NCBI GenBank assembly: GCA_020558355.1
Contig: JAJCKG010000010.1
Coordinates: 1-64,000, forward strand
Length of the DNA: 64,000 bases
Source of the DNA: a bacterium 210820-DFI.6.37
GTDB taxonomy: Bacteria; Bacillota; Clostridia; Peptostreptococcales; Anaerovoracaceae
Direction of reading: 5' to 3'
Made by a program: the position numbers and the translations under genes. Shown piece by piece: positions 6,637 through 51,106 of this stretch; the stretch's first letter is position 1, and each line of letters opens with the position of its first letter. A model generated the notes under the pieces. It was not told where the DNA came from and did not search any database. It was given only the letters and a program-made list of their open reading frames with translations.

Positions 6637-6665
6637 TTGACAATTTGGAAAAGCTATGCTAATAT
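6637..6665 (+). promoter_or_regulatory. Sigma-A promoter of the nitrogenase-like/sulfur operon
   Basis: TTGACA (6637-6642), a 17-bp spacer and TAATAT (6660-6665) are close to consensus. Transcription should begin near 6672, about 33 bp before the Met-rich leader peptide and about 500 bp before the NifH-like gene. Confidence 0.8.
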
Positions 6666-6704
6666 TTAAAACATATTAAACATATAGGAAAAAGGTGAAA
6701 AGAG

Positions 6705-6776
6705 ATGATGGTAATGAAAAAAATGATGTGTATGGCAGCAAGGTTTATTAACGGAATAGATTGGGGATCGCAATAG
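6705..6776 (+). CDS. Met/Cys-rich leader peptide, candidate attenuation sensor
   Basis: A 23-codon ORF behind AAGGTGAAAAG. It starts MMVMKKMMCM, so six of the first ten codons are Met and one is Cys; the remainder is unremarkable and ends GIDWGSQ. A terminator hairpin starts 48 bp after its stop. A cluster of codons for the end product of the downstream genes, before a terminator, is the arrangement of classical attenuation (trp, his, and Cys leaders in Actinobacteria). Ribosome stalling when charged Met- or Cys-tRNA is scarce is the inference. The antiterminator fold is not obvious to me. Confidence 0.65.
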   Translation: MMVMKKMMCMAARFINGIDWGSQ

Positions 6777-6823
6777 TAAGTAAGAATTTTATATGTAGGT
6801 AGCTTTACCATGCAGATATCCCT

Positions 6824-6853
6824 GAAGCCACTTGTGAAGTGAGCTTCTTTTTT
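6824..6853 (+). terminator. Leader terminator / candidate attenuator 1
   Basis: GAAGC-CACTT pairs with AAGTG-A-GCTTC (one bulged A) around a 3-nt loop and runs into TTTTTT. It lies between the Met-rich leader ORF and the YezD gene, with no convincing promoter after it. Confidence 0.8.
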
Positions 6854-6923
6854 ATGACAGTATCCGAAATAAATCGCGTTTCATTATCGTGAGACAGTCA
6901 TATGAGCATTGGAGGAACTCAAA

Positions 6924-7073
6924 ATGGAAAAAAAGAGGGCGTTGGATTTTCAGAAGGACGTCATTCCAGTTGTTTTGAAATATATGGAAGGATTAAAATA
7001 TGGATCCGTAACGTTAGTCGTACAGGATGGAAAAGTGATCCAGATTGAAAAAAAGGAAAAAATAAGACTTTAG
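6924..7073 (+). CDS. YezD family small protein (DUF2292)
   Basis: A 49-residue protein starting at ATG 6924 behind GGAGGA. The C-terminal half, KYGSVTLVVQDGKVIQIEK, is the family core, probably a small beta hairpin. YezD-type proteins recur beside sulfur assimilation genes in Firmicutes, but I know of no biochemical role. Its place at the head of this operon supports a sulfur connection. It is flanked by intrinsic terminators on both sides, so its transcript level may differ from that of the genes downstream. Confidence 0.8.
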   Translation: MEKKRALDFQKDVIPVVLKYMEGLKYGSVTLVVQDGKVIQIEKKEKIRL

Positions 7074-7092
7074 GTTGACTGAACAGATCAGA

Positions 7093-7134
7093 GACCGCCA
7101 GAGAATGCAAGGTGTATTCCGGTGGTCCTTTTTT
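7093..7134 (+). terminator. Terminator between YezD and NifH-like genes / candidate attenuator 2
   Basis: GACCGCC (7093-7099) pairs with GGTGGTC (7121-7127). Inside it, GAATGCA pairs with TGTATTC, giving a long two-part stem followed by CTTTTTT. Only 36 bp separate it from the NifH-like start, too little for a promoter, so downstream genes must be reached by read-through or antitermination. Confidence 0.8.
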
Positions 7135-7157
7135 ATTGAAAAAATCAAAAAAATTAG

Positions 7158-8394
<1,237 letters not shown>

Positions 8395-8398
<4 letters not shown>

Positions 8399-9321
8399 GC
8401 TTAATCGATGAAAAAAAATTACAGGAAATGCTGGGAAAAAAGCACAAGCGCAGCGAGCATTTTGAACATCTTGTAAAGACCCATCCTTGCATGGGCGGGG
8501 AAGCGCACTTTAAATTTGGAAGGATACATCTTCCGGTCAGCCCTTCCTGTAATATTCAGTGTAAATTCTGCAAGCGTGAATTTGAAAAAACGGTTTCAAG
8601 GCCTGGCGTAAGCTCTTTGATTCTGAAGCCGGAGGAAGCAGTAAAAAACGTGAAAAAGGCCCTTGAACTCTGTCCAGAGATTCGGGTCGCGGGAATCGCG
8701 GGTCCGGGGGATACTTTAGCCAGCGATTATGCTTTGGACACCTTTGCTTTGATAAAAAAAGAGTATCCTGATTTGTTGCTCTGTCTCAGCACAAATGGGC
8801 TGCGGCTTCCAGAAAAGGCAGACCGCCTTATTGACATTGGTGTCGATACTGTGACAGTAACCGTAAATGCGGTAGATCCGGAGATTCTGAAGGATATTTG
8901 TTCCTTCATTGTATATGAAGGGAAGAGAATTGATGGCGCGGAAGGCGCGAAAAAACTCATTGCGGCGCAGCTGGAAGGAATCAAAAAACTGGCGCGAGCG
9001 GATATTGCGGTAAAGATCAATAGTGTCCTGGTGCCGGGAATCAATGACCATCACATAAAAGACGTGGCAAGGATAACCCATGAGCTTGGAGCGAGTATTT
9101 TAAATATTATCCCTCTGATTCCGCAGCATGAAATGAAAGAAATTCCCGCTCCTGACTGTGAGATGTTGGAGCGGGTACGCATGGAGGCGGGACAGTACTT
9201 AGATGTTTTCAGACACTGCCAGCACTGCCGCGCGGACGCCTGCGGAGTGCCGGGAAAAGGACAGGACATACATCAGAAGCTGTATGATAGAGAAACCGTA
9301 GAGACATTCTCTCATGGCTAA
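8395..9321 (+). CDS. nifB: NifB-like radical SAM cofactor maturase
   Basis: A 308-residue radical SAM enzyme. THPCMGGEAH (29-38) corresponds to the NifB signature before the SAM domain, and CNIQCKFC (C52, C56, C59) binds the SAM cluster. The C-terminal CQHCRADACG holds the extra cluster cysteines typical of NifB. It lacks the fused NifX domain found in longer NifB proteins, and separate NifX-like genes lie on either side of the block. NifB makes the carbide-containing 8Fe core of nitrogenase cofactors. No nifEN follows, so the 8Fe product may be the final cofactor here (inference). The start at 8395 follows GGAGGG and overlaps the previous gene. Confidence 0.92.
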
Positions 9322-9382
9322 CGGTCCAGCCTGATTTTCGGAGAAGAGAAATTGAAGCAGAAACTGTAAAGGAGAAAGGAAA

Positions 9383-10543
9383 ATGAAATCAGAAAATGAT
9401 ATGTATACAGCACTTATTCATGGAGGTATATACGGTGATGAACTGACAGGATCGGTAAATGTACCGATTTATCAGACATCAACCTATCAGCAGGAACGTT
9501 TGGGCCATCATAAAGGCTATGAATATTCCAGAACAGGAAATCCGACGAGAGCGGCCCTGGAAGCTCTGATTGCGGAGCTGGAAGGAGGCGCCGCGGGGTA
9601 TGCTTTTGCTTCTGGAATGGCGGCGGTAAGCGCGGTCCTGAGTCTGTTTGAAACTGGAGATAAAATCCTGATTTCATCCAATGTATATGGCGGAACATTT
9701 CGCGTACTGGATAAAGTTTTTAATCAGTTCGGCATTGCCTATTCTATTGAAGACACCACAGATCTTGAAGCTCTGGAAAGCCGCGTAACCCCGGAGGTGA
9801 AGGCGATCTGGGTCGAAAGCCCGGCAAATCCGCTGATGACCATTACAGATTTGAGAGGCGTATCGCGGATTGCCAGAAAAAAGGGTATTTATACCATTGT
9901 AGATAATACCTTTATGACTCCGTATCTCCAAAGACCGATTCAGCTTGGGGCGGATATTGTCGTCCACAGCGCTACGAAATATCTGGGCGGTCACAGTGAC
10001 CTTGTGGCGGGACTGGTTGTTGTCAGCTCAGAAGAGCTTTCTGAAAGAATTGCTTTTATTCAGAACTCTACAGGAGGAGTACTGGGGCCATTTGACTCTT
10101 TCCTGCTCATTCGGGGAATCAAAACTTTGGGAGTAAGAATGGATCGCCACGTAGAAAACGCCAATTTAGCGGCGGAATTTTTGAAAAAACATAAAGCGGT
10201 TAAAAAGGTATATTATCCCGGCCTTGAAGAGAGCCAGGGGTATGAAATTAACAGAAAACAGGCAAAGAACGGAGGAGCTATGATTTCCTTCGAATTGAAG
10301 GAAAACTACAACATTGAAACCTTCTTTTCTTCGCTCAGGCTGATTGCTCTGGCTGAAAGCCTGGGAGGGGTTGAGTCCCTGATTTGTCACCCGGCCAGCA
10401 TGACACACGCCTCGATTCCAGAGGATATCCGCCGTAAAGTGGGAATTACCCAGGGATTGATTCGTCTTTCAATAGGAATTGAGGGAATCGGCAGTATATT
10501 GAACGATCTGGAACAGGCAATCAGCAAAAGCGAGGAGAAATAA
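9383..10543 (+). CDS. mccB: Cystathionine gamma-lyase/synthase family enzyme (MccB type)
   Basis: A 386-residue PLP enzyme of the Cys/Met metabolism family. HSATKYLGGHSD contains the Schiff-base lysine (K199), and the family start GG.YGDE..GSVN.PIYQTSTY is clear. Pairing with the cystathionine beta-synthase-like gene 2 bp downstream matches the mccA-mccB pair of Bacillus subtilis, in which MccB splits cystathionine to cysteine. The order here is B then A. Related enzymes (gamma-synthase, Met gamma-lyase) cannot be excluded from sequence alone. Confidence 0.85.
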   Translation: MKSENDMYTALIHGGIYGDELTGSVNVPIYQTSTYQQERLGHHKGYEYSRTGNPTRAALEALIAELEGGAAGYAFASGMAAVSAVLSLFETGDKILISSNVYGGTFRVLDKVFNQFGIAYSIEDTTDLEALESRVTPEVKAIWVESPANPLMTITDLRGVSRIARKKGIYTIVDNTFMTPYLQRPIQLGADIVVHSATKYLGGHSDLVAGLVVVSSEELSERIAFIQNSTGGVLGPFDSFLLIRGIKTLGVRMDRHVENANLAAEFLKKHKAVKKVYYPGLEESQGYEINRKQAKNGGAMISFELKENYNIETFFSSLRLIALAESLGGVESLICHPASMTHASIPEDIRRKVGITQGLIRLSIGIEGIGSILNDLEQAISKSEEK

Positions 10544-10545
10544 TT

Positions 10546-11454
10546 ATGTACTATGAATCAACGCGGGCTCTAATTGGAAACACCCCTATGGTAAAGCTAA
10601 ACCACATGAAAGTGCCTGAAAAGGTAAATATCTTTGTAAAACTGGAGCTTTATAATCCGACAGGCAGCGTAAAGGACCGAATTGGAAAATACATGCTAGA
10701 GGATGCTGAAATCACAGGGAAGCTGCAGCCGGGAGGCACGATTGTTGAAGCGACAGCGGGAAATACGGGTCTTGGAATCGCTTTTGCCGCACTGGACAGA
10801 CGATACCGAATCATATTTGTTGTTCCCGATAAGTTTTCAGAGGAAAAACAGCTTTTAATGAAAGCGTTGGGCGCGGAAATTGTCAATACGCCAAGAGCGG
10901 ATGGCATGCGGGGAGCCTCCAGGAAAGCGGAAGAGCTGCGCAAGTCGATACCAGGAGCGATTTCACTGGGGCAGTTTGAAAACCAAAGTAACCCAAAGGC
11001 ACACTATGAGACTACGGGGCCGGAGATTTATCAGGACATGTCGGGCCGTCTCCAATATCTTGTAGCCGGAGCCGGAAGCGGAGGAACTTATTCAGGCGTC
11101 GTTCGCTATCTGAAAGAACAGAATCCGGATATAAAAGGAGTTCTCGCTGACCCGGTCGGCTCTATTATCGGCGGCGGCGAGCACGCGGACTATGATATTG
11201 AAGGAATTGGAAATGATTTTATCGCGGAAACCATGGACCTCTCTCTGGTAGATGAAGTGGTTAAGATTACAGATAAAGAGGCCTTTTCCATGTGCCGGGA
11301 GCTGGCTGAAAAAGAAGGAATTTTCGCTGGGCCATCATCGGGAGCGGCGTTAGCGGCGGCATTAAAGCTGGCGCGAAAAATAGATTCAGGAAATATTGTA
11401 GTGGTTTTCCCTGACAGAGGGGACCGATATTTCAGCAAAGATTTATATAGATAA
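10546..11454 (+). CDS. mccA: Cystathionine beta-synthase / cysteine synthase family enzyme (MccA type)
   Basis: A 302-residue fold-type II PLP enzyme. PTGSVKDR holds the PLP lysine (K43), and EATAGNTG (where ordinary CysK has ETTSGNTG) together with GAGSGGT and the late FPDRGDRY fit the family. The EATAGNTG variant and the adjacent mccB suggest the O-acetylserine-dependent cystathionine beta-synthase MccA rather than plain cysteine synthase CysK. It lacks the CBS and heme domains of animal enzymes, as expected. It would convert homocysteine from the methionine side to cystathionine, the first step of reverse transsulfuration. Confidence 0.82.
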   Translation: MYYESTRALIGNTPMVKLNHMKVPEKVNIFVKLELYNPTGSVKDRIGKYMLEDAEITGKLQPGGTIVEATAGNTGLGIAFAALDRRYRIIFVVPDKFSEEKQLLMKALGAEIVNTPRADGMRGASRKAEELRKSIPGAISLGQFENQSNPKAHYETTGPEIYQDMSGRLQYLVAGAGSGGTYSGVVRYLKEQNPDIKGVLADPVGSIIGGGEHADYDIEGIGNDFIAETMDLSLVDEVVKITDKEAFSMCRELAEKEGIFAGPSSGAALAAALKLARKIDSGNIVVVFPDRGDRYFSKDLYR

Positions 11455-11485
11455 AGAGTTAAAGGAAAAAGACAGGAGACATTAA

Positions 11486-11563
11486 ATGATTTGGATTGCA
11501 AAACAATGGATTTGTAAAACAATCTATTCCATCATAATGAGTATTGACCGAATGTGTATTTAA
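11486..11563 (+). CDS. Possible 25-residue peptide in the intergenic gap
   Basis: A short ORF behind AGGAG (11474-11478), with two Trp and two Cys codons near others for Ile and Met. It lies in the 172-bp gap between MccA and the importer genes, followed by a TAAAAGCTTTTA palindrome at 11561-11572. It could be a second leader peptide or chance. A weak promoter (TTGTAA, 17 bp, TAATGA, 11512-11540) overlaps it. Confidence 0.25.
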   Translation: MIWIAKQWICKTIYSIIMSIDRMCI

Positions 11564-11626
11564 AAGCTTTTATTAGAAAACAACATATTCAATCGAAATT
11601 ACTCAATTATGAAAGGTGAATCAAAC

Positions 11627-12679
11627 ATGAAAAATAAAATAAAAACAATAGTGGCAGTACTGCTGGCGCTGACATTGCTTCTGTCTTTCGCGGCGTGCGG
11701 TGACAAAAAGGAAGAAACATCTGCCGGAACAGAAACCAAGTCCGGAGAATACAAGTACGGATCAATCGATATTCCAGGTAAAGATGGGGCCCTCTGCGCC
11801 GCGCCAATCTATATTGCTTATGAAAAAGGTTTTTTCGCGGAAGAAGGCTTTGATGTCAACCTCATTTCCGCTGACACGGAAACCAGAAAAATCGGACTCA
11901 ATAATGGAACGATCCCGATTGTAAATGGAGACTTTCAATTTTTCCCTTCTGTTGAAGAAGGTGTAAAGGTAAAGGTAGTAGAAGGTCTTCACAATGGATG
12001 TATCAAATTTATGACAAGACCGGATTCGGACATTAAGGAAGCCAAGGATCTAAAAGGAAAGAAGATCGGCGTAGACGAAATCGGCGGGACCCCGCATCAG
12101 GTAGCCAGCGTGTGGCTGGAACAGGCAGGGATCTCAGCGAAAGCGGAGGATAAGGAAGTGGAATTCCTTCCATACTCCGATGGAAATCTGGAGCTGGAGG
12201 CCCTGTACAATGGAGACATCGATGTAGCGGCAATGTGGGATCCTCTTGGAAGCATAGCGGAGAAAGCGGGAAAAGTGAACGTGATCTTTGATCTGTCTAC
12301 TGATCCGGCTTTTGCGGGAAAATACTGCTGTTTCCTTTATGCTTCCGAAAAAGTACTGAACGAAGAGCCAGAAAAGGTGGCGGCCCTTCTGAGAGCCTAT
12401 CGTAAAGCTCAGAACTGGATCAGTGAAAATCCGGAAGAAACCATCGACATTATTATTGAAGGAAAATATTCCGCGATAGAGGATAAAGAGCTGGCGGCGG
12501 AGCTGGTAAAACACTACGCTTATCCGTCGGAGGAAGAACATCAGAATAACAGCCACAGTGTAGAGGAGGATGTAAAATACTTTGCCGGAGCGCTTCACGA
12601 TATCGGATATCTTAAAATGGACGCGGAAACCTTTACTAAGAAGATCTATCAGAATGTAGACCTGACTTTAGGCCAGTAA
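11627..12679 (+). CDS. ABC transporter substrate-binding lipoprotein (SsuA/TauA/NMT1 type)
   Basis: A 350-residue lipoprotein. The N terminus has Lys residues, a hydrophobic stretch and SFAAC as an approximate lipobox, with the lipidated Cys about residue 24. The mature part follows the NMT1/SsuA fold: APIYIAYEKGFF near the start, DLKGKKIGVDE, then a GDIDVAAMWDP-type segment. Relatives bind sulfonates, taurine, nitrate or thiamine precursors. With permease and ATPase genes directly downstream in a sulfur operon, the likely ligand is a small organosulfur compound (inference). The start at 11627 is chosen for the AAAGGTGAA site. Confidence 0.88.
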   Translation: MKNKIKTIVAVLLALTLLLSFAACGDKKEETSAGTETKSGEYKYGSIDIPGKDGALCAAPIYIAYEKGFFAEEGFDVNLISADTETRKIGLNNGTIPIVNGDFQFFPSVEEGVKVKVVEGLHNGCIKFMTRPDSDIKEAKDLKGKKIGVDEIGGTPHQVASVWLEQAGISAKAEDKEVEFLPYSDGNLELEALYNGDIDVAAMWDPLGSIAEKAGKVNVIFDLSTDPAFAGKYCCFLYASEKVLNEEPEKVAALLRAYRKAQNWISENPEETIDIIIEGKYSAIEDKELAAELVKHYAYPSEEEHQNNSHSVEEDVKYFAGALHDIGYLKMDAETFTKKIYQNVDLTLGQ

Positions 12680-12695
12680 ACCGAGGTGGTATTTC

Positions 12696-13670
12696 TTGAT
12701 TAAGAATATTATTTTAACCGCGCTGGGATTTGGCGTAGCCATAGCGGTTAACGGGCTGGTCCCGCAGATATCGGAAGATGTAACCATTCAAGATTATAGC
12801 TTCGGTTCTGTGACGCTGGATATGAATGAGACCTACAGACTAGTGCTGCTGGCCCTTATAATCCTGTATGCGGGAATCGGAATTTTTTCCGCGGGGGATA
12901 AGAACCGGAGACAGAAGTATAAAAGCCGGGTAGCTTTCCGGTTTGCCGTGGGAATTGCTCTTGCTCTGCTGGACGTGTTTGGGACAAAGCTTCAGGTTCT
13001 CCCGCAGCCCTTTTTTCCAGGGCCTGCGGGAGTGATCGAGGCCTTCCTGATGGAAAGCGGCTATATTCTGCAGAACACATTGTATTCGATCCGCCTGTTT
13101 ATCGCGGGCTTTGGAATCGGGGCTGTCTTTGGAGTTTTTACCGGAATTCTTATCGGCTGGTTCCCAAAGATTTATTACTGGGTAGCTCCGGTACTGAAAA
13201 TATGCGGGGTTATTCCGGCAGTAGCGTGGATGCCTTTTGCGCTGACCTTGCTGCCTACCCCTTTTTCAGCGGCCACATTTCTAATTGTGATCTGCTGCTG
13301 GTTTCCCATCGCTTCCCTTACCGCGTCAGGAGTGCAAAGCACGCCAAAGGCGCAGTTCGAAGCGGCCAGAACGCTCGGAGGCAAAACCCCTTATCTGGTA
13401 TTTCATGTAGCGATTCCTCACGCGATGCCTCAGATTTTTACAGGTATTACTACGGCAAACGCCTTTGCTTTTACGACTCTTGTTATGGCGGAGATGATGG
13501 GCCAGCCGGGAGGCCTTGGCTATTATATCAACGCTTCAAAAGTGTGGAGCGCGTATTATAAAGTGTTTGCGGCGATTATTGTTATGGCCATCCTGTTTAG
13601 CCTGATTATGAAGGGCATTGGACTGATTGAGGATTACGTCCTTCGATGGAGAAGGGGGATAGTAAAATGA
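12696..13670 (+). CDS. ABC transporter permease (SsuC/TauC type)
   Basis: A 324-residue inner-membrane protein starting at TTG 12696 behind GAGGTGG. The core from about residue 110 has five to six spans and the EAA loop (EAARTLGGKTPYLVFHVAIP) that docks to the ATPase. It is longer than usual at the N terminus, with roughly 90 residues holding two extra hydrophobic spans and a short predicted outside loop. It overlaps the ATPase gene by 4 bp. Confidence 0.88.
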   Translation: MIKNIILTALGFGVAIAVNGLVPQISEDVTIQDYSFGSVTLDMNETYRLVLLALIILYAGIGIFSAGDKNRRQKYKSRVAFRFAVGIALALLDVFGTKLQVLPQPFFPGPAGVIEAFLMESGYILQNTLYSIRLFIAGFGIGAVFGVFTGILIGWFPKIYYWVAPVLKICGVIPAVAWMPFALTLLPTPFSAATFLIVICCWFPIASLTASGVQSTPKAQFEAARTLGGKTPYLVFHVAIPHAMPQIFTGITTANAFAFTTLVMAEMMGQPGGLGYYINASKVWSAYYKVFAAIIVMAILFSLIMKGIGLIEDYVLRWRRGIVK

Positions 13671-14452
13671 GTGAGCGTAATACAATTTTGGAAATAGAAG
13701 GTGTAAACCGTATCTATAAGGATAAAGGGAAGAGAGTAGAGGCGCTGAAAGATATTAATCTATCTGTAAAAAGAGGCGAATTCATATCCATCATCGGTTC
13801 ATCCGGATGTGGCAAAACTACCCTGCTGCGGCTTATTGCGGGTCTGGATACGCCACAGGCGGGAAAGCTCCTTTTGGAAGGAGAAGAAATTACAAATACG
13901 GATCCAAAACGGGGCTATGTGTTTCAGCAGGGGAGTCTTTTTCAGTGGCTGACTGTGGAGCAGAATATCGCGGCAGGACTGAAGGCCCGGCATATATATA
14001 AGGAAAATAAAGAAAGAATCGCGGAATATATAGACATGATCGGCCTTGAGGGCTTTGAAAGAGCCTATCCTCATCAGATCAGCGGAGGAATGGCCCAGAG
14101 AGTGGCTATTGCCAGGGCATTGATTAATGATCCTGAAATCCTTTTGCTGGACGAGCCTATGGGAGCGCTGGATTCCTTTACAAGAGCGGATATACAGGAC
14201 AAACTGCTGGAGCTGAGAAAGGCCAGCAACGCAACCATGATTCTGGTGACGCATGATGTGGACGAAGCCATTTATCTTTCCGACCGGATTGTAATTATGA
14301 CGCCGCGTCCAGGAAAGATCAGTCAGATTTTAGAGGTAGAGCTTCCACATCCAAGACATAGAGGAGGAACCGAATTTCTGATGATAAGAAGAAACATACT
14401 GGAAAAATTCCATCTGGCCAGTGCGATGCCAGAACCGGAATACCGAATTTAA
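13667..14452 (+). CDS. ABC transporter ATP-binding protein (SsuB/TauB type)
   Basis: A 261-residue ATPase. Walker A GSSGCGKTT, a Q-loop in VFQQGSLFQWLTV, signature ISGGMAQRVAIARAL and Walker B LLLDEPMGALD are all intact. The DEPMGALD and LFQWLTV forms are characteristic of the nitrate/sulfonate/taurine importer subfamily. The start at ATG 13667 lies inside the permease stop. It powers the importer formed with the two preceding genes. Confidence 0.92.
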   Translation: MSERNTILEIEGVNRIYKDKGKRVEALKDINLSVKRGEFISIIGSSGCGKTTLLRLIAGLDTPQAGKLLLEGEEITNTDPKRGYVFQQGSLFQWLTVEQNIAAGLKARHIYKENKERIAEYIDMIGLEGFERAYPHQISGGMAQRVAIARALINDPEILLLDEPMGALDSFTRADIQDKLLELRKASNATMILVTHDVDEAIYLSDRIVIMTPRPGKISQILEVELPHPRHRGGTEFLMIRRNILEKFHLASAMPEPEYRI

Positions 14453-14477
14453 CAAAGATAAAAAGGAGTTGGAATAT

Positions 14478-15785
14478 ATGACAAATTATAAATTTGATAC
14501 GATAAAAGTGCGGGGCGGCTATGATTCCAGCCAGCACAACCGGTCTGTGGCCGTTCCTATTTATGCCACGGCGGCTTATGATTTTGACAGTCCGGATCAT
14601 TTTAACCGGATAAGAGCAGGCGCGGAAGCGGGCTTTCTCTATACAAGAATTGGAAATCCTACAGTAGCGGTGCTGGAACAGAGAGTTGCTCAGTTGGACG
14701 GCGGTTCCGCCGCGCTGGGCTTGGCGTCGGGCATGGCGGCTGTAAGCTATTCCCTTCTGGCGGCTACAGGCGGAAAGGGGAGAATTCTTTCTACAAAACA
14801 GATCTACGGAGGAACGTTTGATCTGGAGCGCGATGTATTTCCGGAGCTGGGCATTCACTTTGATCTGGTAAGCCACGACAGCGGCATAGAGGAATGGGAA
14901 AACGCTGTCCGAGAAGATACAAAGGCGATCTTTATCGAATCGATCTCTAACCCGGGAGCAAAGCTGCTGGATATAGAGGCCCTGGCTGAGCTGGCGCACA
15001 GACATGGAATTCCGCTGCTGGTAGATAACACATTTGCTACTCCATATTTGCTGCGGCCTCTGGATCATGGCGCGGATATTGTAATTTACTCCGCGACAAA
15101 GGGGCTGAACGGACATGGCAACGCCATTGGCGGAGTCATCGTTGAGGGAAAGCCTTTCCACTGGTCCACTGAAAAGCACCCGCAGTTTTATAAGAGACAT
15201 TGGGTGTCCAGGGATCTTCAGGATGAGGAACGCAGTTTTCTGGAAGCATTTCCGGATTTTCCGTTTATAGCCTTTGTCCGCACAAAGCTACTTGCTTATC
15301 TGGGAGCGGCACTGAGCCCTTATGACGCGCAGCTGATTCTCATTGGACTGGAAACGCTTTCTGAACGGGTTTCAAAACAGGTAGCCAGCACACGAAAGCT
15401 GATTCAGTATCTGAAGACCAGGACCGACGCGGTAGCGTGGATACAATACCCTGAGGTTGAGGAAAGTCCGTACAAGGAACTTGCGGACCGATATTTTCCA
15501 AAGGGAGCGGGAACGGCCTTTTCCTTTGGATTTAAAGGAACAGAGAAGCAGACCGCGGCGCTTCTTGACGCGGTGAAGCTTTTCGGATATCAGGCAAATG
15601 TGGGAGACGCGAAATCCCTGATTGTGAATCCGCCAAAGATAACCCATGGGGAGCTTCGTCCGGCAGAACTTAAAGACGCCGGCGTTCTTTTGGAAACCAT
15701 CCGCCTGTCGCTGGGACTTGAGGACGCGGATGATCTGATCGATGATCTTAATCAGGCCTTTGCCGCGGCAGGGTTTGAAAAATAA
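14478..15785 (+). CDS. metY: O-acetylhomoserine sulfhydrylase family enzyme (MetY type)
   Basis: A 435-residue PLP enzyme. YSATKGLNGHG holds the PLP lysine (K208). The length and the insertion around residues 225-275 distinguish MetY from the 386-residue relative at 9383. MetY enzymes add sulfide or methanethiol to O-acetylhomoserine, giving homocysteine or methionine directly. Its placement immediately before the NifDK-like genes suggests it traps the volatile thiol those genes release, as proposed for Mar systems. The start at 14478 follows AAGGAG; the longer open frame upstream overlaps the ATPase gene. Confidence 0.88.
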   Translation: MTNYKFDTIKVRGGYDSSQHNRSVAVPIYATAAYDFDSPDHFNRIRAGAEAGFLYTRIGNPTVAVLEQRVAQLDGGSAALGLASGMAAVSYSLLAATGGKGRILSTKQIYGGTFDLERDVFPELGIHFDLVSHDSGIEEWENAVREDTKAIFIESISNPGAKLLDIEALAELAHRHGIPLLVDNTFATPYLLRPLDHGADIVIYSATKGLNGHGNAIGGVIVEGKPFHWSTEKHPQFYKRHWVSRDLQDEERSFLEAFPDFPFIAFVRTKLLAYLGAALSPYDAQLILIGLETLSERVSKQVASTRKLIQYLKTRTDAVAWIQYPEVEESPYKELADRYFPKGAGTAFSFGFKGTEKQTAALLDAVKLFGYQANVGDAKSLIVNPPKITHGELRPAELKDAGVLLETIRLSLGLEDADDLIDDLNQAFAAAGFEK

Positions 15786-15817
15786 TGCTTTGACCTAAAA
15801 AAGGAGAAGACAAAATT

Positions 15818-17290
15818 ATGAGTACAGTAAATCTAAATAGCGCGGAGGTCTCCGTCAGAGAAGTGCGTCTTGGCTCTATTACAGGATTTCACGGCGGCGC
15901 GTCCGATCTTGTCGAGGCGTCCCATTGCGGAAAGCTAAAGGACAAGTCTCGTTCCTTCAGCCAGTGTCTGGGGTGTTCTACCTCGAACGCGGCGTGTACA
16001 GCCGTTTTAATTCAGGACGCGGCAGTCATCAGCCATGGACCGGTAGGCTGCTCCACCTGCCTTCACGAATTCGCGTTTACCTATCGGGTAAACGCGGGTC
16101 TTCGGGGCGTAAGCAATCCGACCCAGAGAAAAATCTATTCCACAAATCTGGAGGAAAAGGACACCATATATGGCGGTACAGCAAAACTGGAAGAAACGAT
16201 ACGCAAGGTATATCAGCGCGCGAAACCCAGTGTAATTTTCGTTTTGACCACCTGTGCCGCCGGAATTATCGGTGATGATGTGGAGAGTGTGGCAAACGCG
16301 GTCGAAAAAGAAATCGGTATTCCGGTGGTTGCCATTTTCTGCGAAGGATTCCGGTCTAAGATGTGGACTTCCGGGTTTGACGCGGGATATCATGGGATTG
16401 CCAGAAAGTTGATAAAGCAGCCGGAGAAAAAACGAAACATAATCAACGTAGTTAATTTCTGGGGAAGCGATGTGTTTAATCAATGGTTCAGGCGGTTTGG
16501 ATATGAAGCCAACTATTTAACGCCTTACTCCACGCTGGAAACGATTCAGCATTCCTCGGAGGCGGCTTGTACCGTTCAGGCGTGCGCGACCTTAGGATCT
16601 TATCTGGCGACGGCTCTGGATCAGGCGTTTGGTGTTCCGGAGCTGAAGACTTCACCGCCTTACGGAATCGCTCAGACAGATCGGTGGTTCCGCGAGCTGG
16701 GACAGATCCTGGGGAAAGAAGAGGAAGTGGAAGCTTTTCTGGAAGAGGAACGGGCAAAATATATGCCGGAGATTCAGAAGCTGCGGGAAAAACTTTCAGG
16801 AAAAACCGCCTATGTAACAGCGGGAGCGTCCCATGGTCATTCCCTTCTGGCACTTCTTGGCGAACTGGGAATGAAAGCGGTAGGAGCGGCCATTTTCCAC
16901 CACGATCCGTCCTATGACAGTGAGTCGGTTGAAGCGGATACGCTAAAGCATACCGTAGAGGATTACGGAAATGTCGAAAACTATACAGTCTGTAATAAAC
17001 AGGAATTTGAACTGGTCAATGTGCTGAACCGGCTTCGCCCGGATATCCTTTTAGCAAGACATGGAGGCATGACTTTGTGGGGAGCCAAATTCGGGATTCC
17101 GTCCCTTCTGATCGGTGATGAGCATTTCGGTATGGGGTATGAGGGACTTGTAAAATATGGGAATCAGATCCTGACAACCATGGAAAACGATGAGTTTGTA
17201 ACGAACCTATCAAAGCACGCAATTAATCCATATACCGATTGGTGGCTGAATCAGGAACCGTATACATTCCTGAAAGGGGGTAAAAAGTAA
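15818..17290 (+). CDS. Nitrogenase-like component, NifD homologue
   Basis: A 490-residue alpha-type subunit of the nitrogenase superfamily. P-cluster cysteine positions are kept: C53 (in CLGCSTS), C78 in HGPVGC and C146 in TTCAAGIIGDD. C256 (VQACATLGS, followed by AFGVP) aligns with the cofactor-ligating Cys275 of Azotobacter NifD. The region equivalent to His442 reads GDEHFGMGYEG, so the aligned residue is Met439, with His436 nearby. Alpha-subunit residues around FeMo-co are otherwise not kept. This pattern fits a nitrogenase-like reductase with a P-cluster and a modified cofactor pocket, as in methylthio-alkane reductase. The stop overlaps the next start by 1 bp. Confidence 0.88.
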   Translation: MSTVNLNSAEVSVREVRLGSITGFHGGASDLVEASHCGKLKDKSRSFSQCLGCSTSNAACTAVLIQDAAVISHGPVGCSTCLHEFAFTYRVNAGLRGVSNPTQRKIYSTNLEEKDTIYGGTAKLEETIRKVYQRAKPSVIFVLTTCAAGIIGDDVESVANAVEKEIGIPVVAIFCEGFRSKMWTSGFDAGYHGIARKLIKQPEKKRNIINVVNFWGSDVFNQWFRRFGYEANYLTPYSTLETIQHSSEAACTVQACATLGSYLATALDQAFGVPELKTSPPYGIAQTDRWFRELGQILGKEEEVEAFLEEERAKYMPEIQKLREKLSGKTAYVTAGASHGHSLLALLGELGMKAVGAAIFHHDPSYDSESVEADTLKHTVEDYGNVENYTVCNKQEFELVNVLNRLRPDILLARHGGMTLWGAKFGIPSLLIGDEHFGMGYEGLVKYGNQILTTMENDEFVTNLSKHAINPYTDWWLNQEPYTFLKGGKK

Positions 17291-18627
17291 TGGCAGGATT
17301 AATCGAACAGGAACGTTACGCTTGCGCTATCGGAGCGCTTCAGAGTGTTGTAGCGATTCCAAGGGCAACGCCGATTCTTCATTCGGGTCCCGGATGCGGC
17401 ACAATGATTCAGGGGTTTTTCGAGCGTTCAACAGGCTACGCGGGAGGAAGCACTTCTCCATGTACCAATTTCAGTGAAAAAGAAGTTGTGTTTGGCGGAG
17501 AAAACCGCCTTCGCAAAATTATAGAAAATACATATAAGGTTTTGGATACCGATCTGCAGGTTGTAGTGACCGGCTGTACCGCTGATATTGTGGGAGATGA
17601 CGTGGCGTCTGTAACAAATGAATTTCTGGATGAGGGAAAACCCATTGTCCATGTGGAAACAGCGGGCTTTAAATCGAACAATTACGTTTCTCACAGCAAA
17701 GTAGTCAACGCCATAATCGACCAGTATGTAAACCGTTTTATTGACGAAAATCCGGTTCGAAGTGAGAAAAAGCTTGTAAACCTGCTGGCGTCCATTCCTT
17801 ACCAGGACCCTTTCTGGAAAGGAAATCTTGCGGAATACAAGAGGCTTCTCGAAGGACTGGGGCTGGAAGTAAATATTCTGTTCGGACCCTATTCCAAAGG
17901 TGTAGAGGAATGGAAGACGATTCCAAAGGCCAACTTTAATATTCTGGTTTCTCCATGGTACGGAGAGCCGATCGCGAAGCATCTGGAAAAGAAATACGGA
18001 CAGCCTTATTATCATTTCCGTTATATGCCTATTGGAGCAAATGAAACGACCCGATTTTTAAAAGGCGCGGTAGATTTTGCAAAAAAACAAGGGGCTGGCC
18101 TTAATGAGGAAAAAGCTCTGGCGTATATTGAGCATGAGGAATACGCGTACTATGAAGAAATCGACAATCTGGCGACATTCCTTCTGGAATTCCGTTATGG
18201 CCTGCCGAATCATGTCCACATTTTGCATGACGCCGGGTATGTTGTGGGATTATCCAGATTCCTTCTGCATGAAACGGGGATTGTACCAAAAGAACAGTTT
18301 ATCGTGGACAATACTCCGGCAGAGTATATTGAGACGATTACGGGTGATCTGCAGTCTGCGTCCGATAAACGGAAGATACCGGTTCGTTTTGATCCGGACG
18401 CCGGAGCGGCGCAGGATATGATCCGCGGTCTTAGTCATGAGGGGAGAGGTCTGATTATTGGAAGCGGATGGGATAAGGAGCTGGCCAAGGAGAAAGGCTA
18501 CGATTTTCTTTCCGCGGCTGTACCGACTCCATACAGATTGGTTTTAACCACCAACTATGTGGGATATACAGGAGGCCTTCGGGTCATCGAAGATATCTAT
18601 GACGCCGTTCTGTATACATATAAATAA
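17290..18627 (+). CDS. Nitrogenase-like component, NifK homologue
   Basis: A 445-residue beta-type subunit. The three beta-side P-cluster cysteines appear as C12 (ACAIGA), C36 (HSGPGC) and C96 (VVTGCTADIVGDD), with spacings of 24 and 60 that match the 25 and 58 of NifK. The protein starts almost directly at the first cysteine, so it lacks the N-terminal extension of molybdenum NifK, as do many nitrogenase-like proteins. It should form a heterotetramer with the preceding NifD-like protein and receive electrons from the NifH-like reductase. The start codon overlaps the previous stop by one base. Confidence 0.88.
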   Translation: MAGLIEQERYACAIGALQSVVAIPRATPILHSGPGCGTMIQGFFERSTGYAGGSTSPCTNFSEKEVVFGGENRLRKIIENTYKVLDTDLQVVVTGCTADIVGDDVASVTNEFLDEGKPIVHVETAGFKSNNYVSHSKVVNAIIDQYVNRFIDENPVRSEKKLVNLLASIPYQDPFWKGNLAEYKRLLEGLGLEVNILFGPYSKGVEEWKTIPKANFNILVSPWYGEPIAKHLEKKYGQPYYHFRYMPIGANETTRFLKGAVDFAKKQGAGLNEEKALAYIEHEEYAYYEEIDNLATFLLEFRYGLPNHVHILHDAGYVVGLSRFLLHETGIVPKEQFIVDNTPAEYIETITGDLQSASDKRKIPVRFDPDAGAAQDMIRGLSHEGRGLIIGSGWDKELAKEKGYDFLSAAVPTPYRLVLTTNYVGYTGGLRVIEDIYDAVLYTYK

Positions 18628-18640
18628 AAGAGGTGAAAGC

Positions 18641-18976
18641 ATGGCAAAAATCGCGGTGGCAAGCACAGATGGAATATATATTGATGAGCATTTCGGAAGA
18701 GCGGCCTTTTTTTGGATTTATGAGCGAACAGAAACGGGATACGAGTTTGTGGAAGCGCGGGACGCGGTTGCCGTTCGCCAGCATGTACGGGAACATAACA
18801 AAAGCGACTTTGACCGTCTGATAGAGCTTCTCTCCGATTGTGAGGCGGTGTTCGTAAACAGGATAGGACAGGGCGCCGCGGATTATCTGATAAAAAAAGG
18901 AGTGCGGGTTTTTGAAGCGTCCGGAAGGATTGAGCTCGTATTTCAGCAAGCGCTGGAGTGTAAAATCTGGGACTGA
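18641..18976 (+). CDS. Second NifX/NafY-type cofactor-binding protein
   Basis: A 111-residue member of the dinitrogenase cofactor-binding family, starting at ATG 18641 behind AGAGGTGAAAG. It keeps the family motifs ASTDGIYIDEHFGRAAFF and NRIGQGAADYL. It is 13 bp after the NifK-like gene and ends the operon. By position it may act in cofactor insertion into the DK complex, while the copy at 8024 may act with NifB (inference). No intrinsic terminator is evident after it, so read-through into the following ABC genes is possible. Confidence 0.85.
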   Translation: MAKIAVASTDGIYIDEHFGRAAFFWIYERTETGYEFVEARDAVAVRQHVREHNKSDFDRLIELLSDCEAVFVNRIGQGAADYLIKKGVRVFEASGRIELVFQQALECKIWD

Positions 18977-42075: not shown

Positions 42076-42086
42076 AGTAATGTTTT

Positions 42087-42440
42087 GGGTAGCTCAGGCA
42101 ATTGCGTGCGTCTTCGGGACGTATGAGGAAAGTCCGGGCTCCGCAGGGCGAGGATGCCAGATAACGTCTGGCGTAGGTAACTATAGGGAAAGTGCAACAG
42201 AAACACACCGCCGAAACGGATCATGCCGTGGTAAGGGTGAAATGGTGAGGTAAGAGCTCACTGGGGTATATGGTAACATATATCCTGTGTAAACCCCATC
42301 CGGAGCAAGACCAAGAGAGGGCGTAAAAAAAGCGGCGGCCCGTCGCTGCCCGAGAGGTAGGTCGCTGGAGCGTGCTGGTGACAGTACGTCGAGATAGATG
42401 ATTGCCAGATACAGAACCCGGCTTACGAGCTGCCCGAAAC
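42087..42440 (+). ncRNA. rnpB: RNase P RNA, bacterial class A
   Basis: The catalytic RNA of tRNA 5' maturation. P1 is formed by GGGTAGCTC (42087-42095) and GAGCTGCCC (42427-42435). The conserved core GAGGAAAGTCCGGGCTC is near the 5' end, and ACAGAACCCGGCTTA near the 3' end forms P4. GGTAAGGGTGAAA and the GAGAGG-type loop lie between. Ends are approximate. Confidence 0.95.
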
Positions 42441-50772: not shown

Positions 50773-50895
50773 AGTAAACGATTTAAAGCGATACACGAAA
50801 CGGTATCCGAAAACAGGATATGACGCCTGGATTTGGAAATGGAATTGATGTTTATTTCATCAGGGAAAAGCATACAATACTAATAAATCCTGAAG

Positions 50896-51058
50896 TGTTC
50901 GTTGGGAATCTATAATTCAACCTACGTTTTAACATTGGGAGTCCGGAGTTTCCGGCAGCGGATGTCAGGCCGCCTTCTGAGCGGAAGACAGATGCGGGAA
51001 CAGGGCACCCCCCTATCGAAGATAGGGCGTGAATTATATTCTCGACGGCATGTCGGGA
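50896..51058 (+). ncRNA. ssrS: 6S RNA (SsrS), Firmicutes type
   Basis: A long rod: GAATCTATAATTCA near 50907 pairs with TGAATTATATTC near 51030. Inside are sequence blocks I recall from clostridial 6S RNA: AACCTACGTTTT, TTGGGAGTC, GCCTTCTGAGCGGAAG (an apical hairpin) and AGGGCACCCCCCTA, closing with AGATAGGG. Length of about 165 nt fits. 6S RNA binds the SigA RNA polymerase as an open-promoter mimic. A T tract follows at 51062. Ends are approximate. Confidence 0.72.
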
Positions 51059-51106
51059 TTCTTCTTTTTTTGATACATTTGATACAGGAAATGGAGCAGA
51101 ATATAA

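Follow-up and report, generated by a model that had tools for sequence, protein, structure and literature searches.

The methylthio-alkane reductase (MAR) of Rhodospirillum rubrum, MarBHDK, is the characterized enzyme closest to the system discussed here. Its ligands have been described, and Arg428 and His429 have been proposed as a possible hallmark separating MAR from nitrogenases; His194 is among the residues lying 3.9-4.7 Å from the S2B site, and Gln191 and His195 of nitrogenase are called essential for N2 reduction (accessible part of PMC12552129). In IsrBHDK of Rhodobacter capsulatus, which pairs with the SsuCAB importer, IsrD keeps one of the three P-cluster cysteines and has no equivalent of Cys275, and IsrB is closest to BciD (PMC11423573). 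In addition, MarHDK-like Group IV-A genes have been noted, together with sulfur genes, near type I mlp clusters, and a part in salvaging methionine or using sulfur has been suggested for them (accessible part of the preprint PMC10418091). The Group IV enzyme of Endomicrobium proavitum, on the other hand, is stated in the accessible parts of the published accounts to be a functional nitrogenase, other nif-like genes being absent. This article discusses a related operon in a stretch of 64,000 nucleotides (the window hereafter; contig JAJCKG010000010.1, positions 1 to 64,000) from the bacterium 210820-DFI.6.37, a member of the Clostridia. The single operon of 12 kb, all on the + strand, carries genes for nitrogenase-like H, NifX, NifB, D, K and NifX interleaved with mccB, mccA, an ATP-binding cassette (ABC) importer and metY.

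It is proposed here, with a probability of roughly three in four, that the operon is a sulfur-starvation scavenging system, in which an importer-fed reductase of organosulfur C-S bonds feeds methionine and then cysteine. The observations behind this proposal are gene content, clade, ligand conservation, a recurring sulfur context and regulatory elements seen as sequence features; the cluster type is put forward by analogy with MAR, and the reaction, substrate, product and sense of regulation are likewise put forward conditionally. A C-S bond-breaking reductase for organosulfur scavenging had been suggested in the preliminary description, which was made from the letters of the window, and this appears to be largely right in view of the MAR-type ligands, the clade-wide sulfur context and the sulfur-type regulation in relatives. 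Open reading frame (ORF) and profile matches also bear out its gene list: all the genes named are present on the + strand in the order given, nitrogenase-like and sulfur genes being interleaved.

The catalytic subunits D (15818-17290, +) and K (17290-18627, +) both contain PF00148, and D is assigned to Group IV-A by tree, ligands and fold, while Cys 12, 36 and 96 of K align with the P-cluster cysteines of MarK. D falls inside a 26-row clade of E. proavitum NfaD (support 100/100; 100 by the Shimodaira-Hasegawa-like approximate likelihood ratio test in another tree) and outside the separate clade of MAR and MAR-like D (15 rows, 100/98), being 70% identical to NfaD versus 40% to MarD of R. rubrum. 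The nearest solved relative of D and K by sequence and fold is MAR (PDB 9fmg, 9d9u). Because the matches to MAR are strong (1e-128 for D and 1e-112 for K) and other phyla have this gene set too, the operon is not a chance assembly. MAR proper was nevertheless rejected as an identity, on the tree placement and on two replaced residues, His194 and Gln74; thus MAR, named in the preliminary description as the closest theme, stands as the nearest solved relative with its ligand set kept, but not as the clade. Placement within true NifDK with nifEN elsewhere in the genome, raised there as the opposing outcome, was not found as far as the tree and the genomes of relatives show: D is distant from NifD and NifE in the tree, it scores 141.4 bits against TIGR01282 (cut-off 653.55), K is likewise far under the NifK cut-off, and 41 of 47 IV-A genomes, whose completeness is not stated, have no NifE above the curated cut-off; two isolates, Ruminococcus albus AR67 and Herbinix hemicellulosilytica, are among these 41. 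The remaining six do have it, and an Endomicrobium sp. genome (G017) gives a 336-bit match suggesting a canonical NifD-type protein. A D at E <= 1e-180 (54-84% identity) is encoded by 15 of 391 genomes in the class of Ruminiclostridium sufflavum (G031).

The ligands were counted in 161 distinct IV-A, 121 distinct MAR and five NifD sequences, which were database matches ranked by similarity, so that close relatives are each counted (numbering is that of MAR). Cys66, Cys91, Cys158, Cys270, Trp195 and Phe199 are present in 161/161 IV-A D proteins, His375 in 160 (one gap) and Arg428-His429 in 159 (two gaps). The NifD sequences have Gln and His where MAR and IV-A have Trp195 and Phe199, and IV-A D thus has neither Gln191 nor His195 of nitrogenase. 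The window D follows the MAR set with C53, C78, C146, C256, W183, F187, H361 and R414-H415, and at the positions of nitrogenase Val70, Gln191 and His195 it has Cys/Thr, Trp and Phe, respectively. Two positions separate IV-A from MAR, in which His194 and Gln74 are kept in all 121 sequences: in IV-A the former is Val (72), Met (43), Ile (42) or Leu (4) and never His, and the latter is mostly Thr (77) or Met (74), with Gln in 2 of 161. The window D has M182 and T61 there. Since His194 is near the S2B site, IV-A enzymes plausibly use other substrates on the same cluster.

The sulfur context was counted in the best 80 loci of a single scan over GTDB species genomes (relatives, L001-L047; canonical nif, L048-L080) and in loci of genomes added later, a locus being positive if MccA, MccB or MetY lies within 10 kb of D at fixed identity thresholds; a strict subset has at least 12 kb of flank. 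Positive IV-A loci number 36 of 59 overall and 32 of 42 in the strict subset, versus 0/39 and 0/31 for canonical nif loci (Fisher 3e-11 and 4e-12) and 0/18 and 0/14 for Group-IV paralog loci from the same genomes as the IV-A loci. Among loci fetched after the idea had been formed, 12 of 16 are positive, and a first census with cruder gene calls gave 24/46, or 21/25 with at least 15 kb of flank. In the former counts (36 of 59 and 32 of 42), three of the 46 original loci were dropped (no focal D ORF), L040 is uncounted, stem-group D (54-60% identity) is included, and two of 20 paralog loci (L096, L098) are excluded as holding a IV-A D, L097 and L101 among the remaining 18 matching D weakly. The nif controls come mostly from other taxa; nif loci of the same genomes are positive in 0/6. 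At the strict thresholds MAR and MAR-like loci (L083, L086, L091, L094, L102) also have no mccA, mccB or metY, although L102 has a MetY at 40% identity or more. A relative of the importer binding protein with at least 49% identity is present in 10 of 13 genomes tried. The importer and reverse transsulfuration, described at first as additions of this version of the system, are therefore present as stated, but they recur in IV-A and are not peculiar to this genome.

The upstream region points to sulfur as well. A sigma-A-type promoter (6637-6665, +; TTGACA-17-TAATAT with TG before the -10 element, 10/12 consensus matches) is supported mainly by its position, because the promoter scan as a whole is barely above background (23 versus 18.1 in shuffles). 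There follow a Met-rich leader peptide, MMVMKKMMCMAARFINGIDWGSQ (6705-6776, +), of a Met/Cys-dense kind that recurs in relatives; an intrinsic terminator (6824-6853, +) with a bulged stem at 6824-6847 (-9.7 kcal/mol) and the T-run TTTTTT at 6848-6853; a yezD-like gene for a 49-residue DUF2292 protein (6924-7073, +; PF10055, 5.6e-18); and a conserved hairpin with the stem CTGA/TCAG, whose pairs covary, fused to a second terminator (7076-7134, +; terminator 7093-7127, T-run 7129-7134). YezD is distantly related to OscA, a protein of sulfur starvation (35 bits against the NCBIfam model, cut-off 85). The candidate attenuator mentioned in the preliminary description thus exists as the leader-peptide terminator, but the second terminator after yezD (7093-7134) makes two candidate attenuation points. 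Rfam gave no match to a T-box or known riboswitch at the operon, and the leader region folds no more stably than shuffles (z 0.60).

Relatives carry recognizable signals. In Clostridium luticellarii (L040) an S-adenosylmethionine (SAM) riboswitch at 1401-1504 heads a MetN-type importer gene with D and K directly after it, and another precedes yezD; in L123 a SAM riboswitch lies ahead of yezD, D and K. These are the only D operons so headed in scans of 21 + 15 loci, and their D proteins belong to the stem group just outside the 26-row clade. T-boxes are present in L025 and L038. Short ORFs dense in Met/Cys (at least five in 10 residues) number 9 of 125 upstream of system genes (nine loci including the window) versus 4 of 507 elsewhere, and the p value of 1.3e-4 is descriptive, since the density measure was picked after examples had been seen; three further Met/Cys-rich leaders (L019, L024, L046) were recognized by eye. 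A terminator precedes the next gene in 6 of 12 leaders by script, and by eye in the window, L019, L024 and L030; in L046 and L113 there is none between the leader and yezD, and it comes after yezD. A classical trp-type switch was tried and rejected, as 8 of 10 leaders keep the terminator (pair probability at least 0.80) in every state tried, with the ribosome placed at Met/Cys codons or the stop. L024, and L026 at some positions, shifted in equilibrium folding as an attenuator requires. The leader peptides may have a metal-binding or other role.

The hairpin fused to a terminator follows 10 of 14 yezD copies. The 4-bp stem differs between copies but stays paired (CTGA/TCAG, CTAA/TTAG, CCAG/CTGG and CCGG/CCGG in eight aligned copies; CTGG/CCAG and CTAG/CTAG among 40 sequences that were selected with pairing required), and the A-rich loop has TGA and AGR on its flanks. 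Hairpin plus terminator occurs 23 times in the 2.25 Mb of loci and 0 times in the reversed sequences, and the hairpin alone 43 versus 10 times. A strict pattern gave 29 matches in 14 genomes (8 of them with a match) and none in the reversed control, some of the 29 having no evident terminator. By inspection of the next ORF, 14 precede H, B, NifX or D-type genes, five sulfur genes (two MetN-type, one MetQ-type, MetY and a sulfate-binding protein), two other importer genes in Group-IV loci and eight other or unclear genes; 12 of the 29 lie in loci that supplied the pattern, and of the other 17, nine precede nitrogenase-like (seven) or sulfur (two) genes. Rfam searches over the element in 11 loci, at E up to 1, returned sub-threshold, implausible matches only. 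The copies, which include window 7076-7134, L040 1579, L046, L086 and L123, make up a candidate new regulatory RNA in Clostridia. It may be read as an antitermination element of a sulfur regulon; an action of YezD or some other protein on it is a guess. In L154 (G440) a T-box, a small ORF containing Cys and a copy of the hairpin follow one another ahead of a sulfate-binding protein gene, and very Met/Cys-rich small ORFs adjoin hairpin copies in L152 (G040, contig C84) and in L145, L149, L151 and L153 (G440, contig C13).

From H onward, neighbouring genes overlap or have no more than about 170 nt between them, which is consistent with one transcript, and their products would fit the following scheme. 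The substrate-binding lipoprotein of NMT1/SsuA type (11627-12679, +; start picked from two in-frame ATG codons), the permease (12696-13670, +; PF00528, 6.3e-19) and the ATPase (13646-14452, +; PF00005, 8.2e-36) would take up an organosulfur compound. Assigning the substrate from the binding protein was tried and abandoned, there being weak matches only, to several types of binding protein; Cys57, Cys125, Cys234 and Cys235 of this protein are invariant in 16 aligned sequences and the lipobox Cys is near-invariant. The NifB-like radical SAM protein B (8395-9321, +; TIGR01290, 303.8 bits, cut-off 343.65), which covers positions 5-280 of the 441 in the model and has no C-terminal NifX domain, and the two NifX-like carriers (8024-8398, +; PF02579, 1.6e-19; and 18641-18976, +; 3.1e-20) would build an [Fe8S9C] cluster and deliver it to DK with no need of Mo, homocitrate or NifEN. 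The reductase H (7170-8027, +; 285 residues; TIGR01287, 468.5 bits, above cut-off) would reduce DK at the expense of ATP, and DK would break the C-S bond by reduction, the most likely product being methanethiol (or sulfide). The O-acetylhomoserine sulfhydrylase-like MetY (14478-15785, +; TIGR01326, 444.5 bits, cut-off 495.1) would couple the thiol to O-acetylhomoserine to give methionine (or homocysteine).

The sulfur of homocysteine would then pass to cysteine by reverse transsulfuration through MccA (10546-11454, +), which resembles O-acetylserine-dependent cystathionine beta-synthase, and MccB (9383-10543, +), which resembles cystathionine gamma-lyase/homocysteine desulfhydrase (best model PRK07671, 570.9 bits, slightly below the cut-off of 594). 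MccA scores similarly with CysK models, and its best solved relative is 5xw3 (318.8 bits, followed by 5b1h with 279.1), which is listed as an O-acetylserine lyase and which we take to be the reverse-transsulfuration enzyme of B. anthracis; adjacency to mccB supports the MccA identity. The presence of reverse transsulfuration suggests that sulfur enters at the level of methionine or homocysteine, as methanethiol would through MetY, and that of an importer suggests a substrate which does not diffuse freely, unlike dimethyl sulfide. The two leader terminators would limit expression, which would presumably rise when methionine or cysteine is short.

Other readings of the same operon differ in what DK releases. 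If it were sulfide, MetY would make homocysteine directly and MccAB then cysteine; MetY enzymes accept sulfide, the SAM cycle would not be needed, and the importer suggests a charged, possibly unmethylated substrate, with His194 and Gln74 changed relative to MAR. For sulfide, however, cysteine synthase alone would suffice, MAR releases methanethiol, and two relatives have SAM riboswitches, which suggest methionine, so that sulfide release is considered unlikely. A sulfonate reductase like IsrBHDK, taking up isethionate or another sulfonate through the SsuA-like importer and releasing sulfite, would suit the SsuA/NMT1-type binding protein and the partnership of Isr with SsuCAB (PMC11423573), but the window D, unlike IsrD, keeps all P-cluster cysteines and the Cys275 equivalent, and B is NifB-like whereas IsrB is closest to BciD. 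MccAB would be of little use for sulfite, and a PF01077 sulfite/nitrite reductase that could use it is absent from 23 of 36 IV-A genomes searched, among them the genome of E. proavitum. This speaks against sulfite as the product; a sulfonate reductase is accordingly regarded as improbable.

A genuine simplified nitrogenase, whose neighbouring sulfur genes would supply sulfur for the large Fe-S clusters, is judged slightly more improbable again, even though TIGR01287 names the window H a nitrogenase iron protein above its cut-off and NfaD and NfaK are the only PF00148 proteins in the genome of E. proavitum (G057), for which 15N2 incorporation is reported. The IV-A D proteins have MAR-type ligands in place of Gln191/His195, and MAR with the same ligand set reduces acetylene yet made no 15NH4+ above background (accessible part of PMC12552129), so that N2 fixation could not be concluded from acetylene reduction by itself. 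Furthermore, this sulfur context is found in none of the 39 canonical nif loci, six of 47 hosts also carry NifE, and the regulators recognized are SAM, Met or Cys signals, nitrogen signals and regulator genes not having been searched for.

Several points weigh against the sulfur-scavenging proposal. The reaction is borrowed from MAR, with which D is 40% identical and from which it differs at two positions near the MAR active site, and a literature search found no data on the activity, the substrate or the response to sulfur of any IV-A enzyme. Equilibrium folding showed no leader-driven switching of the terminator in 8 of 10 cases. Ten of 42 long-flank IV-A loci show no MccA, MccB or MetY at the thresholds used; conversely, lowering the MetY threshold to 40% identity turns two of the 18 paralog loci positive (L085, L102; 1 of 14 with long flank), and the divergent Group-IV paralog locus of Acetivibrio straminisolvens (L090) has metY in two pieces and a weak relative of the binding protein. 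Taken together, the strict and loose paralog counts indicate that the full mccAB-metY set marks IV-A and that links to sulfur, though weaker, exist in some of the other Group-IV loci. Moreover, E. proavitum is reported to incorporate 15N2 (accessible part of PMC9147875), and neither a Met/Cys leader, the hairpin pattern nor yezD was found in this organism.

The cluster of E. proavitum, on one strand, reads MetY, substrate-binding protein, permease, ATPase, D, K, NifX, MccB, MccA, NifB, NifX and H, that is, the same 12 genes as the window operon from H onward in a different order. An apparent fragment of a binding-protein gene lies between K and NifX (L109 11956-12207). The conflict with the published account is real: either IV-A also reduces N2 despite its MAR-type ligands or the attribution needs revisiting. 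As E. proavitum carries the same enzyme and genes, the claim of N2 fixation by Group IV deserves a direct retest. A literature search that covered little subscription content found no report of the E. proavitum sulfur cluster or of the hairpin element. A wider claim, to which we incline with some hesitation, has two parts: that the whole IV-A clade, E. proavitum included, consists of importer-fed organosulfur reductases and not nitrogenases, so that the published diazotrophy needs another explanation, and that in Clostridia the enzyme belongs to a sulfur regulon under an undescribed covarying hairpin-terminator RNA, with YezD and Met/Cys leader peptides, common to sulfate, methionine-uptake and MetY genes.

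The standard model names the window H, which comes from a IV-A operon, nifH, and E. proavitum is cited, in the accessible parts of the literature, as the exceptional case of a Group IV enzyme fixing N2 without NifEN. If the first part of the wider claim is true, diazotrophy has been wrongly assigned where it was inferred from IV-A in termite-gut Endomicrobia and Heliophilum, and the argument for a minimal nitrogenase is left with no example. Anaerobic communities would then have a further route to organic sulfur, driven by ATP and possibly yielding hydrocarbons or thiols as by-products.

Nitrogenase-like genes are arranged in various ways in related organisms. In the loci compared, the H proteins that partner IV-A-type DK fall into two kinds, about 80-91% or about 49% identical to the window H (L109 16293-17168; L118; L081), and H may therefore be exchanged between systems. 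In C. luticellarii (G040) the D/K sets of nitrogenase-like type number at least six (L040, two in L085, L086, L087, L088), and across L040, L084-L088 and L132 there is also a canonical nif locus, with further nif-type ORFs in L084. On plasmid pTS2 of Treponema saccharophilum (L082) an ABC importer is flanked by two nitrogenase-like D/K pairs about 5 kb from a type I-C CRISPR (clustered regularly interspaced short palindromic repeats) locus, and a plasmid of the Chloroflexota phototroph Candidatus Chlorohelix allophototropha (L081) carries a IV-A stem-group B-X-H-D-K set with MetY and ABC importer genes. The window itself contains genes for class A RNase P (42086-42440) and 6S RNA (50884-51063), and for this reason it is probably chromosomal.

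Compared with the known systems, the window operon shares with MarBHDK the B, H, D and K set, the P-cluster cysteines, Cys270, the Arg428-His429 loop, Trp195, Phe199 and His375, and probably a sulfur role, but its D belongs to another clade at 40% identity with His194 and Gln74 replaced, and it adds an importer and two NifX-like carriers. Its likeness to IsrBHDK lies in the combination of a nitrogenase-like complex, a radical SAM partner and an SsuA-type importer for organosulfur compounds; IsrD, however, has lost most cluster ligands, IsrB is not NifB-like and the product is sulfite. The Nfa system of E. proavitum has D in the same clade at 70% identity and the same 12 genes clustered, and differs in gene order, in an H of 49% identity, in the leader and hairpin, which were not found there, and in being described in print as a nitrogenase. 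In the light of PMC10418091 the idea that IV-A serves sulfur metabolism is not entirely new; the accessible part of that preprint deals with neither E. proavitum and the ligand set nor the importer-mccAB-metY operon and the way it is regulated. As far as the literature search shows, what is new here is the ligand census, the recurring importer-mccAB-metY operon with its controls, the presence of this operon in E. proavitum and the regulatory elements.

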